This document shows positions 1,378 through 34,552 of a stretch of 42,474 nucleotides of DNA, one piece after another. Source of the DNA: Nitrososphaerota archaeon (GTDB lineage: Archaea > Thermoproteota > Bathyarchaeia > Bathyarchaeales > Bathycorpusculaceae). The DNA is taken from positions 1-42,474 of the forward strand of contig JAIRQQ010000069.1 in NCBI GenBank assembly GCA_031256395.1, in the 5' to 3' direction. The translations under genes and the position numbers were made by a program. How positions within the stretch are numbered: position 1 is the first letter of the stretch; every line of letters starts with the position of its first letter. The notes beneath the pieces were generated by a model. It was not told the DNA's origin and searched no databases. It was given only the letters and a program-made list of their open reading frames with translations.

Positions 1378-1719
1378 TTAGAGTAGTTGGTTGTAGAAGC
1401 AACTGTTTTCTCCGGTGTGACATGCGGGGCCGGTTTGTTCGACTAGATATAGTAGTGAGTCATAGTCGCAGTCTGTGCTTACAGAGATTATTTTTTGTGT
1501 GTTTCCGCTGGTTTCTCCTTTTATCCAGATTTCGTTTCGGCTACGGCTCCAATAGGTTGCTTTTTTGGTCTTAAGGGTCAGTTCCACGGCTTCTTTAGTG
1601 GCATAGGCCTGCATCAAAACGGTTTTGGTTTTGGCGTCTTGGGTTATAACGGGGATGAGTCCGTTTCCTTTTGTGAAATCTAGTTTTTTGAGTAGTTCGT
1701 TTGGTGTTATTATTGTCGT
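1378..1719 (-). CDS. hisI: Phosphoribosyl-AMP cyclohydrolase HisI
   Basis: This enzyme opens the adenine ring of phosphoribosyl-AMP, the third step of histidine synthesis. Typical family motifs are present: KGETSGNTQ, the metal-site segment [10 protein letters not shown] and the zinc cysteines of [12 protein letters not shown]. The protein ends shortly after, so it is a cyclohydrolase only; no HisE (pyrophosphohydrolase) part is fused and no hisE is seen nearby. Homology demands an N-terminus ahead of the first ATG (1617), since [20 protein letters not shown] matches the usual HisI beginning. That stretch has no ATG, GTG or TTG. In-frame candidates are ACG 1719, ATA 1713 and ATA 1710, downstream of a GGGGGTGA ribosome site inside hisF. 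I chose ACG 1719, which overlaps the hisF end by 10 bases. It is the last gene of the his operon. Function is sure, start is not. Confidence 0.87.
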
Positions 1720-12920: not shown

Positions 12921-12977
<57 letters not shown>

Positions 12978-12995: not shown

Positions 12996-13184
12996 TTATC
13001 GGATGGCTTCGTCTATTCTTTGGTCGCGTTTGGTTTTGGTGACTTCTTTGAATAGTTCGAGGCATTCTTCTTTTGTGGGTGCTTCTATGCCTATGCTTCC
13101 ATAGGCGCCTATGTCGATGCGGTATTTTTTTCTACCGTCGGTTCTTTCTTCTGTTTGGCTTATTTTTACCCGTCTCCCTTTCGT
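12996..13184 (-). CDS. Small conserved-looking protein with nonstandard start
   Basis: The minus-strand frame reads KGRRVKISQTEERTDGRKKY, then RIDIGAYGSIGIEAPTKEE and a helix CLELFKEVTKTKRDQRIDEA ending at TAA 12996. It has the composition of a real gene (basic N-terminus, amphipathic terminal helix), although no family is recognised. Between the upstream in-frame TAG and this protein there is no ATG, GTG or TTG. ACG 13184 would give MKGRRVKIS; ATA 13163 would give a 55-residue form and has GGGAGACGGG just ahead. A TATA-like CTTATAAG lies at 13230-13237. It could also be a gene whose start has mutated. Confidence 0.5.
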   Translation of the reverse strand, partial: TKGRRVKISQTEERTDGRKKYRIDIGAYGSIGIEAPTKEECLELFKEVTKTKRDQRIDEAIR

Positions 13185-14533: not shown

Positions 14534-15046
14534 TTATTCGCCTAGTTCTCTGCGCAAGATGTTGACTTTTTCGGAGAGTTTCTCAATCATGACCTCGTTT
14601 GCGAAGTGTGTTAGAGGGTTGCTACACGCTGAGCAGTGAAAAACTAGCTCGACTGCTTCTTCAAAGGGAATACGCTTGCACTCGGGGTTGCCGCAATGGT
14701 AGAAGTCATGATTTTTTTCGTATTCGAGGCGTACGTTGAGTTTTTCAAGAACACGCCGCTTTTGGCTGAGAATAAAGCCTTCGAGTTGGTCGGGTTGAAG
14801 TTTCCAGTGGAAGATAAACCAGCCGGTTTTGGGATCACGGGTACGTCTTAGACTAACTAGGGAGTGATCGTAGAGTTTGTAGAGGATTTTGCGTACGCTG
14901 TTTAGACGTATGGCGGTCTTGTTGGCGATTTCATCATCTGTAATTTCTTCTACGCCTTTTAGATGGTCGATAAGTATTACAGCATCTTGGTCTCCAAGCG
15001 CCAAGGCCACTTTGTTTAGGGTTGTATCATCAATTGTTGATAACAT
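14534..15046 (-). CDS. tfe: Transcription factor E alpha subunit (TFE)
   Basis: TFE is the archaeal homologue of the TFIIE alpha N-terminal half; it helps RNA polymerase and TBP/TFB open promoters. Residues 1-90 form the extended winged helix (TDDEIANKTAIRLNSVRKILYKL), then DPKTGWFIFHWKL links to a coiled helix. A zinc ribbon follows: CGNPEC and, after about 15 residues, CSAC. I chose ATG 15046 (MLSTIDDTT; 170 residues, normal for TFE, AGGA about 10 bases ahead). A longer frame to 15187 adds a Lys-rich stretch overlapping the Trm56 gene. It sits between Trm56 and the HD hydrolase. Confidence 0.9.
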   Translation of the reverse strand: MLSTIDDTTLNKVALALGDQDAVILIDHLKGVEEITDDEIANKTAIRLNSVRKILYKLYDHSLVSLRRTRDPKTGWFIFHWKLQPDQLEGFILSQKRRVLEKLNVRLEYEKNHDFYHCGNPECKRIPFEEAVELVFHCSACSNPLTHFANEVMIEKLSEKVNILRRELGE

Positions 15047-15113
15047 GCTGGAAGTTCCTTTTGACACGCTTAATACTGCATCTTGCTGCAATAAAACTCT
15101 TCGCACAAGACGT

Positions 15114-15746
15114 TTAGAATTCAATGTTGTTTGTTTTAATTTCCTTACCGCGTTCTTTTGGGATGATGCTGATTTTTGCTTTTTCAAAGGGTCTACCTAG
15201 TTCTTGACCCACAAAATATCGATCTAAAAAGAGAGCCAAAGCCGAACACTCAGAATGAGGCTGATTACCCACCGCAACATTAAAATCAGAAATTTCAGAA
15301 GAGTAGAATTCACCCGGCACCTTTTGACTACCCACCAAAAGCATAACATCTTTGTTTTGCGCTTTAATACGGTTTAAAACATCACTGGTTTGAATATTCT
15401 CACCATACGCAGTAAGATGCACAACAATCCCGCCTTGGCTCTTCCAGTCCCGAATCGCACTTTTCCAAGGAATAGACATTTCAAATTTAAAGCCGCCACC
15501 CCAGGTTTGAGTAATTTTGGATATAGTTTCCTCAATATGCCGATCCACGGTATCAGCTAAAATAAAACCAGAAGCCCCCAAAGCCCTAGCAGTTAGAGCA
15601 ACATGGGTTGTAAGCCGCACATCACGCTGAACACGATGACCCCAACGCAAAACCACAACACGAGAAAGACCATTACTACCACTACTACTGCTAAGAGCAG
15701 CAGAGTTATTGTTGTTGTCGAGAGAGGGTGGATTGGAATTTTCCAT
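15114..15746 (-). CDS. trm56: tRNA (cytidine(56)-2'-O)-methyltransferase Trm56
   Basis: This SPOUT-fold enzyme methylates the ribose of C56 in the T loop of archaeal tRNAs. The diagnostic N-terminus VVVLRWGHRVQRDVRLTTHV is present, followed by ALTARALGASGFILAD, the knot segment LLVGSQKVPGEFY, and the SPOUT C-terminal strand NVAVGNQPHSECSALALFLD. ATG 15746 gives a 29-residue Asn/Ser-rich leader (DNNNNSAALSSSSGSNG) absent from typical Trm56; GTG 15656 would remove it. The leader is encoded by runs of AAC and AGT triplets and overlaps the hflX end by 41 bases. Confidence 0.93.
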   Translation of the reverse strand: MENSNPPSLDNNNNSAALSSSSGSNGLSRVVVLRWGHRVQRDVRLTTHVALTARALGASGFILADTVDRHIEETISKITQTWGGGFKFEMSIPWKSAIRDWKSQGGIVVHLTAYGENIQTSDVLNRIKAQNKDVMLLVGSQKVPGEFYSSEISDFNVAVGNQPHSECSALALFLDRYFVGQELGRPFEKAKISIIPKERGKEIKTNNIEF

Positions 15747-16983
15747 TTAAGAGTTGGACCTTCTTTTTTATTTGCGCCATTATGGAGGGTTCGGCTTCAA
15801 AGGTGATGTGTACGGAGTCATTTGTGAATTCTTCTTTGTGGATATCTGCTTTTTGATGTACCCAAGAGATAAAGGGCATGACATTACCGCTCAGAGGTAC
15901 GATAAATTCGCCAGCCACATAGTGTTCAAGCACGCGTAGAACATGTTTTTTGAGTTCGGCAATATTGGTTTGACATTTTGCTGAGAGCAAAAGAGGATTT
16001 TTGATTTTATCTTTGAGAGCCTCAAGTTTTTCGGTTTGTTCTTGGGGGGTGAGACAGTCAATTTTGTTAAGAGCAGTTACAAGGGGGATATCTGTAGCGC
16101 CGAGTTGTTCGATGGTTTGGAGGCAAACATTATTTTTTTTCTCAATAGCGTTTAGGGGTTCGTCTAAGTCTACAACCAATATGATAAGATCAGCAAAAAT
16201 TGTCTCCTCAAGGGTTGAGTGAAACGCCTCAATCAAAGAAATAGGAAGGCGATCAATAAAGCCCACAGTATCCGTTAGAAGAAAACGCCGGCCGCTAAAC
16301 TCAAAGATACGCGTCTGAGTTGAGAGGGTGGTGAATAAACTTTTGTCCACCAGGGCGGTTTCTTGGGTTAGGGAATTAAAGAGAGTGCTTTTGCCTGCAC
16401 TGGTATAGCCTGCTAGAGAAATTGTTAAAAAGCCTAATTCTGCACGCCGCTCTCTTTGCAAAACACGCTTTTCGCGTATGCGGCGGAGTTTTTTGCGTAT
16501 GGTCTGTACCTGTGCTTTTATGGCATCACGATAGATATCTGCTTCATAGACACCCAGCCCCATAAAGCCAGGCTGCTCACTGCCCTTGGAGAGACGCACC
16601 TTTTCGCGGGCATGTCTGAGCTCGTTTTGAAGAGTGGCTAGCTGGATTTGCATCTGCGCCTCAGTTGTGGTGGCGCGTCTACGGAAGAGCTCCAAGATAA
16701 GCTGAAAGCGATCCATAACCTCGATATGGGTAGCTTTAGCCAAGTTGTAGTTCTGCAAAGTGCGAAGCGTATTATCAAAAATTATTTTTTGGGCACCAGT
16801 TGTTTCAACAAGTTTAACCAATTCTTCGACTTTGCCTGCACCAATTTGGTAGCGGGAATCAGGTCGACGGGTCTGCTCCATAGTACCAACTATGGTGTAG
16901 CCAGCCGTTTCGGCTAAGCTTTGAAGTTCTGCTAAGGTGGATTCTTCACGATTTAATCGACGTTGAACTAAGATGGCTTTCGT
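15706..16983 (-). CDS. hflX: HflX-type GTPase
   Basis: HflX is a ribosome-associated GTPase that splits or rescues 70S-type ribosomes. The N-terminal nucleotide-binding domain includes EQTRRPDSRYQIGAGKVEEL, then a long coiled helix pair with GSEQPGFMGLG. The G domain has G1 SLAGYTSAGKSTLFNSL, G2 around LFTTLSTQTR, G3 LTDTVGFIDRLP and G4 TALNKIDCL. The first ATG (16881) would delete the conserved opening KAILVQRRLNREESTLAELQ. Upstream to the in-frame stop there is no ATG, GTG or TTG. ACG 16983 gives MKAILVQRR and lies 10 bases after GGAGG inside the MBF1 gene. The gene overlaps both neighbours. Function is well supported, the start codon is unusual. Confidence 0.92.
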   Translation of the reverse strand, partial: TKAILVQRRLNREESTLAELQSLAETAGYTIVGTMEQTRRPDSRYQIGAGKVEELVKLVETTGAQKIIFDNTLRTLQNYNLAKATHIEVMDRFQLILELFRRRATTTEAQMQIQLATLQNELRHAREKVRLSKGSEQPGFMGLGVYEADIYRDAIKAQVQTIRKKLRRIREKRVLQRERRAELGFLTISLAGYTSAGKSTLFNSLTQETALVDKSLFTTLSTQTRIFEFSGRRFLLTDTVGFIDRLPISLIEAFHSTLEETIFADLIILVVDLDEPLNAIEKKNNVCLQTIEQLGATDIPLVTALNKIDCLTPQEQTEKLEALKDKIKNPLLLSAKCQTNIAELKKHVLRVLEHYVAGEFIVPLSGNVMPFISWVHQKADIHKEEFTNDSVHITFEAEPSIMAQIKKKVQLLNGKFQSTLSRQQQ

Positions 16984-17501
16984 TTGCCAGGGGCCTCCTC
17001 AGCGGGTTTAGTCATATCGATGAGGTCCCCCAAAGTTAAACCTTCACTAGCCATCTTTTTGGGCGTTGTTGCGGTGACTTTTTCGTCTGCAATTGGAACC
17101 ATCAATGTGATTTTTAGGGCGTGTTCTAACTTGCTTGCAAGCTGGTTGGTGGGTATGATTTTACCGGTTTCAATGTGCCGCAACATGGAAGTTTTTTCGT
17201 TGATTTTTTTGCCCAAATCTTCATGAGATAAACATAGTTTTTCTCTGGCTAAGCGGATTTTGGAGGCATAGTCATCAACGACCTCGGTGGTTATTTGCAC
17301 CTGTGCAACAGGAGGTTTTTTCATGATAACGGGGATATGTGCATACGATTTAGTTATGCTGGGCTGTGAAATGGCTACCTCTTCATGCATTACGACTTTA
17401 CCGTGTTTGGAACATTCAACACACACGGTCAGCTTGGCGCCTTCGATTATCGCACGCACGGGATCCGTGTGGATTTTGCGTCCGCAGACTTCACATCGCA
17501 T
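16968..17501 (-). CDS. Multiprotein bridging factor 1 homologue (MBF1)
   Basis: Archaeal MBF1 binds the small ribosomal subunit. The N-terminal zinc ribbon has C3, C6, C27 and C30. A linker precedes a Cro/cI-type HTH (about 80-140): IRLAREKLCLSHEDLGKKIN, then TSMLRHIETGKIIPTNQLAS. The C-terminal tail is polar (TKPAEEAPGKRKPS). At 177 residues it is typical. ATG 17501 has AAAGGTGA 10 bases ahead. It leads the cluster HflX-Trm56-TFE-HD-DUF2110, so one transcript may carry six information-processing genes. Confidence 0.93.
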   Translation of the reverse strand: MRCEVCGRKIHTDPVRAIIEGAKLTVCVECSKHGKVVMHEEVAISQPSITKSYAHIPVIMKKPPVAQVQITTEVVDDYASKIRLAREKLCLSHEDLGKKINEKTSMLRHIETGKIIPTNQLASKLEHALKITLMVPIADEKVTATTPKKMASEGLTLGDLIDMTKPAEEAPGKRKPS

Positions 17502-34338: not shown

Positions 34339-34414
34339 AGCGGGGTGGGGTAGCCAGGATCAACCCGCTGGGCTCATAACCCAGAGATCAGTAGTTCAAA
34401 TCTACTCCCCGCTA
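34339..34414 (+). tRNA. Initiator tRNA-Met(CAT)
   Basis: A 76-base cloverleaf. The acceptor AGCGGGG pairs with CCCCGCT and has the A1:U72 end pair typical of archaeal initiators. The anticodon stem ends in three G:C pairs (GGG/CCC) around CTCATAA with anticodon CAT. The T arm is AGTAG-TTCAAAT-CTACT and the discriminator A. CCA is not encoded and no intron is seen. Confidence 0.95.
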
Positions 34415-34552
34415 CTAAAATCAATCCAGACCCAGTTTTATTAAGCAATATAGCGCAAGGCGGCTTGTTGTTTTATTTTTATGTTCATCCAATTGGCGGG
34501 CTCGTTTCGATAAAGGTAAATAAACCAGGGGGGTTAACATAGAACAACCAGT

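Follow-up and report, generated by a model that had tools for sequence, protein, structure and literature searches.

The AUU start codon of infC, the gene of initiation factor IF3, is conserved among bacteria, and HflX, like IF3, acts on ribosomes. The hflX locus described here resembles infC in that a gene whose product acts on ribosomes has a start codon other than ATG, GTG or TTG (collectively NTG), but it differs in domain (archaea versus bacteria), in product (HflX GTPase versus IF3) and in codon (ACG versus AUU), and the overlap with the gene mbf1 is found only in hflX. Published work describes autoregulation of infC made possible by its AUU codon (Butler et al. 1987, cited in PMC9845219). 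Conserved non-AUG starts of chloroplast genes, described in the same source, are likewise thought to tune output; chloroplast ACG can, however, be edited to AUG, and editing is unlikely for archaeal hflX (PMC9845219). The neighbourhood of mbf1 and hflX was described for Crenarchaeota, in an account the available part of which does not address the start codon of hflX (PMC3062615). A homologue of HflX is named in a title as a ribosome-splitting factor (PMC6310831), and archaeal MBF1 is reported to bind both the 30S subunit and the 70S ribosome (Blombach 2014, cited in PMC6301793).

In the available part of a review of archaeal initiation, AUG, GUG and UUG are named as start codons (PMC7531240). 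In a study of start codon switches in prokaryotes, 61,358 ancestral AUG starts were counted and switches to GUG, UUG, CUG and AUU were listed; the word ACG is absent from its main text (PMC5622118). Among the open-access matches listed, no conserved archaeal ACG start and no treatment of the start codon of archaeal hflX were found by title or abstract.

The hflX gene in the window

The analysed stretch of DNA, 42,474 nucleotides in length and hereafter called the window, belongs to the assembly designated G000. It lies in a Bathyarchaeia genome: the relatives that a protein search brought up all belong to this group, and the closest of them with a name are Candidatus Bathycorpusculum. The features discussed are collected in Table 1.

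Table 1. Coordinates of the features of the window discussed in the text
Feature	Positions	Strand	Remarks
hflX coding sequence	15706..16983	-	ACG start to TAA; Pfam domains, PDB HflX matches
ACG, inferred hflX start codon	16981..16983	-	ACG in 57/68 genomes of the order; same codon TTG/GTG in outgroups
GGAGG, Shine-Dalgarno-like	16994..16998	-	10 nt before ACG
mbf1 (HTH_3)	16968..17501	-	Stop TAG 16968-16970; shares the first 16 nt of hflX, in a different frame
hisI	1378..1713	-	Likely start ATA 1713-1711 or 1710-1708, not ACG 1719-1717; Pfam PRA-CH
Small gene	12996..13163	-	Likely start ATA 13163-13161, not ACG 13184-13182; without Pfam match
tRNA-Met, anticodon CAT	34339..34415	+	ARAGORN; initiator-type anticodon stem GGGCTCATAACCC

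The reading frame of hflX extends from stop to stop over positions 15706-16998 of the minus strand. The upstream in-frame TGA is followed by the codons GGA GGC CCC TGG CAA ACG AAA GCC ATC, and the first NTG of the frame is the ATG at 16881, codon 35. The Pfam domains GTP-bdg_N, GTP-bdg_M and the GTPase domain MMR_HSR1 were identified in the encoded protein in the order of the HflX family, and solved HflX chains in the PDB match it between residues 12 and 404; by sequence similarity, the gene is a true member of the HflX GTPase family. Since the match to GTP-bdg_N begins at residue 15, a start at codon 35 would truncate this domain.

The original prediction, made from the window alone, was that hflX lacks NTG at its start, that the ATG at 16881 lies too late for the conserved N-terminus, and that the gene begins at an ACG located 10 nt after GGAGG. 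The lack of NTG and the placement of ACG after GGAGG are borne out by the window itself, and the internal ATG, which would cut GTP-bdg_N, stands at an unconserved codon. There is good support for ACG as the hflX start. The homologous codon is ACG in 61 of the 99 genomes read. A misread base (T at 16982) had been named as a possible source of the unusual codon; the recurrence of ACG across these separately assembled genomes rules out a sequencing error. The orthologues do not have the ATG of codon 35 in common, and an internal start at this position was ruled out as well.

Conservation of the start codon and overlap with mbf1

The comparison at the level of the order comprised 68 genomes, namely, 59 usable genomes of the 61 searched, eight further genomes of the same family and G147; G002, without a match, and G038, whose match sets in only at query residue 20, by the edge of a contig, were left out. 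The codon homologous to the ACG of the window is ACG in 57 genomes, ACA in four, ATG in two, ATA in two, and ATT, GTG and GCA in one each; a non-NTG codon is therefore present in 65 of the 68 genomes (57 with ACG and eight with others), and ATG or GTG in three. The 61-genome search covered nine families of the order. ACG was found in eight of them, and the ninth, f3, is represented by the sole genome G038, in which hflX is cut off. Among the 23 named loci L002-L024, which largely duplicate the 68 genomes and were kept outside them, ACG is present in 21, ATG in L016 and ACA in L023.

A stop codon is located immediately before codon 1, in the same frame, in seven of the 68 genomes, which rules out a more upstream start in those. 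Three genomes have an NTG in frame after the upstream stop and before codon 1. One is L044, which also has ATG at codon 1 itself; in L078 and L081 this NTG precedes ACG by 8 and 6 codons, so that ACG need not be the start in these two. Where codon 1 is not NTG (65 genomes), the position of the first NTG downstream varies widely, between codons 6 and 141. The homologous ACG codon is very likely the start codon of hflX. Initiation at a near-cognate codon farther downstream, such as ATC or ATA at codon 4, is highly improbable: 55 of the 68 genomes have ATC or ATA there, but the remaining 13 have GTC, CTC, GTA, CTT or another codon, the NTG of outgroups and the ATG or GTG within the order align with codon 1, and the GGAGG of the window would be 19 nt away.

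According to Fitch parsimony for the 68 genomes, positions 1, 2 and 3 of the codon underwent 2, 5 and 4 changes, versus a median of 28 and a minimum of 17 changes at the 39 four-fold silent sites of hflX, a comparison that does not separate the constraint of the overlap from selection on the start codon. By this measure, the start codon of hflX evolves more slowly than silent sites, and the overlap alone does not account for this. In the FastTree phylogeny of HflX proteins, ACG looks by eye like one old gain with a few losses. Where it was lost, mostly ATA or ATT took its place, or else ACA or GCA with CTG, ATT, ATA or GTA as the preceding codon. In these ACA and GCA members the start may for this reason sit one codon upstream; as start codons, ACA, GCA and GTA would all be poor. 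The use of ATG or GTG in three genomes of the order indicates that the weak start is dispensable.

The gene before hflX, to which Pfam assigns the domain HTH_3, is named mbf1 here as a presumed member of that family. Relative to mbf1, hflX is in the -1 frame in most genomes, and NTG followed by A at the start of hflX would read TGA in the usual mbf1 frame, which forbids T there. T at position 2 of the codon would create an mbf1 stop in 42 of the 68 genomes, every one of which has ACG. In another 18 the mbf1 stop precedes position 2, and the codon is ACG in nine, ACA in four, ATA in two, and ATT, GCA and GTG in one each; in six genomes T would be silent in mbf1, and the codon is ACG in five and ATG in one. 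The 24 genomes unconstrained by mbf1 therefore include 14 with ACG, eight with other non-NTG codons and two with NTG. In L082, the ATG at the start of hflX itself ends mbf1, and in L095 mbf1 was not found in the stretch examined.

These counts bear on the explanation by overlap only, according to which the TGA formed by NTG and A would truncate MBF1, the weak start would be a by-product, and translational coupling would give enough HflX. In the 42 constrained genomes the overlap is enough on its own to account for the missing NTG, L082 also agrees with this explanation, and the drop of the ACG share to 9 of 18 after the mbf1 stop suggests that part of the conservation of ACG comes from the overlap. 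However, NTG is present in just two of the 24 genomes free of the constraint, ACG is retained in five of the six where T is silent, and in L310, of the more distant family f29, T for C would give AAT for AAC in mbf1, both encoding Asn. This explanation is unlikely as a complete one; the scarcity of NTG among the unconstrained genomes led to its rejection as the sole cause, and it was retained as a part cause. The overlap with mbf1 appears to help to keep ACG and does not alone explain the missing NTG.

A start codon would be unneeded if programmed ribosomal frameshifting produced an MBF1-HflX fusion. The predominant -1 frame and the upstream GGAGG are compatible with this, and Mbf1 is reported to prevent frameshifting in yeast (PMC6301793), but the mbf1 stop was found from -84 to +35 relative to hflX, in part before it, and in all three frames among 70 distinct sequences, so that one fixed shift cannot serve all; moreover, no slippery heptamer was apparent by eye, and ATG or GTG occupies the same codon in three of the 68 genomes. 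With neither a constant frame relation nor a shift site, the fusion was ruled out as a common mechanism, and its probability is very low. Still less probable is RNA editing of C to U, by which ACG would become AUG as at chloroplast starts (PMC9845219). The ATA, ATT, ACA and GCA codons of eight of the 68 genomes cannot become AUG in this way, and editing would shorten MBF1 in 42 genomes. We know of no archaeal precedent for it.

Shine-Dalgarno matches and RNA openness were determined for 67 of the 68 genomes, one having too little upstream sequence. A match of at least 5 nt to AGGAGGTGAT was found for 55 of the 67 hflX genes versus 105 of 448 other starts. The distance from GGAGG to the start is 10 in 48 of the 53 hflX genes with GGAGG, longer than at the 16 other starts with this motif, where it is 7 or 8 in ten and 10 in one. 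The mean openness of the RNA from -16 to +3 differs little, at 0.57 for the 67 hflX genes and 0.49 for 103 other starts. RNAalifold, applied to 34 of the 68 hflX sequences, detected no conserved RNA structure around the start (consensus energy 0). Of the ATG-bearing loci, L044 has no GGAGG upstream, as if a strong Shine-Dalgarno sequence were no longer needed, and L082 retains it.

Start codons in other lineages and in other genes

In the outgroups L119-L124, L126 and L128, the homologous codon is TTG or GTG. Among 21 loci from other orders of the class, assessed by eye, ACG was seen in four, NTG at the site or a few codons before it in 14, and neither in three (L132, L133 and L136). The phylum outgroup consisted of 40 loci picked by hand, mostly high-scoring, from 115 genomes of the same phylum with a match; an in-frame NTG is available in 33 of them. 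The other seven (L279, L280, L281, L284, L285, L298 and L299) have no NTG between the conserved beginning of the protein and the Shine-Dalgarno region or stop that precedes it, and L279 has an in-frame NTG farther up, ahead of the Shine-Dalgarno sequence. In family f29, with eight usable loci of nine matches among 22 genomes, hflX starts with ATG in three, ATA in three, ACG in one, and ATT or TTG in one; in L309 and L310 an in-frame NTG is also present before the Shine-Dalgarno sequence. In family f49, hflX is without NTG or a clear near-cognate codon in five of 11 matched genomes (L316-L319 and L322), and in these five mbf1 was not found beside hflX in the stretch examined.

The original prediction had counted hisI and a small gene of the window as further cases of an ACG start. 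Both indeed lack NTG and have an ACG in frame, but the orthologues place the start elsewhere. Among 30 orthologous hisI loci, read out of 46 matched genomes, ATG is present in 24, one or two codons after the place of ACG, and ATA in six, including the window. In the small gene, GGGAG comes only after ACG, and the ATG of the orthologues aligns with the downstream ATA; the aligned codon in orthologues is ATG or ATT, and NTG is absent from seven of 12 genomes, which have ATA or ATT. ACG was ruled out as the start of the two genes in favour of ATA, at which both probably begin.

At the hisI locus, the hisF stop overlaps the hisI start (window positions 1708-1719), and in relatives a single G/A difference pairs a TGA or TAA stop of hisF with an ATG or ATA start of hisI. 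The small protein family (L149-L178) is represented by one to three copies in 21 of the 61 genomes, all of one genus, and a tandem CAGC repeat is located just past the small gene, at about 12921-12977 of the window.

Start codons of the genus were surveyed in about 0.96 Mb from 12 genomes, which yielded 539 reading frames, sorted into 120 ortholog groups. In the shared start column 459 frames have NTG, 43 have a non-NTG codon and 11 are gapped, and 26 frames belong to four groups without such a column. Across these 120 groups, ACG is not among the 43 non-NTG codons, and in many of the 43 frames an NTG lies only a few codons away. The column chosen for hflX itself (group 23) was a later one, near codon 35. 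The four groups without a shared column and eight more were given a closer look. One of the groups overlaps the tRNA-Met gene, and another is presumably a tRNA translated as protein. The gene at 14745-15656 of G004:C1 (in L225), which we take from its motif to be metallo-beta-lactamase-like, has an apparent CTG start, and two relatives have ATG or TTG. The claim of a lineage tolerant of ACG initiation is not borne out by the survey, nor by hisI and the small gene, which point to ATA. The genus seems to accept near-cognate starts (ATA, ATT and perhaps CTG) in a few genes. No other conserved ACG start turned up among the 120 ortholog groups of the genus; hflX is the only deeply conserved one seen and represents a separate case.

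Probable initiation at ACG and its possible role

The tRNA-Met of the window is presumably the initiator, as judged from its stem sequence. The exact pattern GGGCTNNNAACCC was found with the anticodon CAT in 21 of 31 genomes and with CGT in none, the remaining ten being without a CAT match to a pattern that would miss other stems. The anticodon CAU would pair with ACG with one mismatch.

The position of ACG, its conservation, the strong Shine-Dalgarno sequence and the persistence of ACG where the mbf1 frame does not need it were shown for the genomes compared. The reading preferred here, with a probability of roughly 0.68, is that hflX of Bathyarchaeia uses ACG as an old, selected weak start codon, read by the ordinary initiator tRNA. 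The CAU anticodon would tolerate the single mismatch, and the strong GGAGG inside or near the end of mbf1 would assist initiation. The non-NTG start would date to the ancestor of the order and probably also to that of some sister orders. We infer that ribosomes really start at ACG and that the output is low and regulated; the combination of a weak codon, a strong Shine-Dalgarno sequence and long spacing suggests low or conditional output. Purifying selection would keep the weak start, which would hold HflX at a low level or tie it to the stringency or state of initiating ribosomes.

The AUU start of infC for IF3 would be the bacterial parallel of such a selected weak start. Like infC, hflX has a non-NTG codon at the homologous start across distant species (65 of 68 genomes, 57 with ACG). 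A selected weak start of the kind known from bacterial infC, here in another domain, gene and codon, appears to be the best explanation. Because HflX acts on ribosomes and MBF1 binds the 30S and 70S particles, feedback through initiation is plausible. A more specific version, in which mbf1-hflX would be the archaeal counterpart of the infC circuit, is tentative and rather doubtful: ACG would sense the stringency of start selection or the state of the 30S subunit, possibly set by 30S-bound MBF1, ribosome trouble would raise HflX, and the near-cognate starts of family f29 would be a separate gain.

Common gene callers consider only ATG, GTG and TTG as starts. For this reason, HflX of this order of Bathyarchaeia is probably annotated 5 to 140 residues short in most genomes, as estimated from the positions of the first NTG. 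If the preferred reading is true, the retention of ACG across eight families of a single order would offer a rare natural example in which to study start codon choice by archaeal initiation factors. It would also suggest that archaea, like bacteria, have control by means of a deliberately poor start codon.
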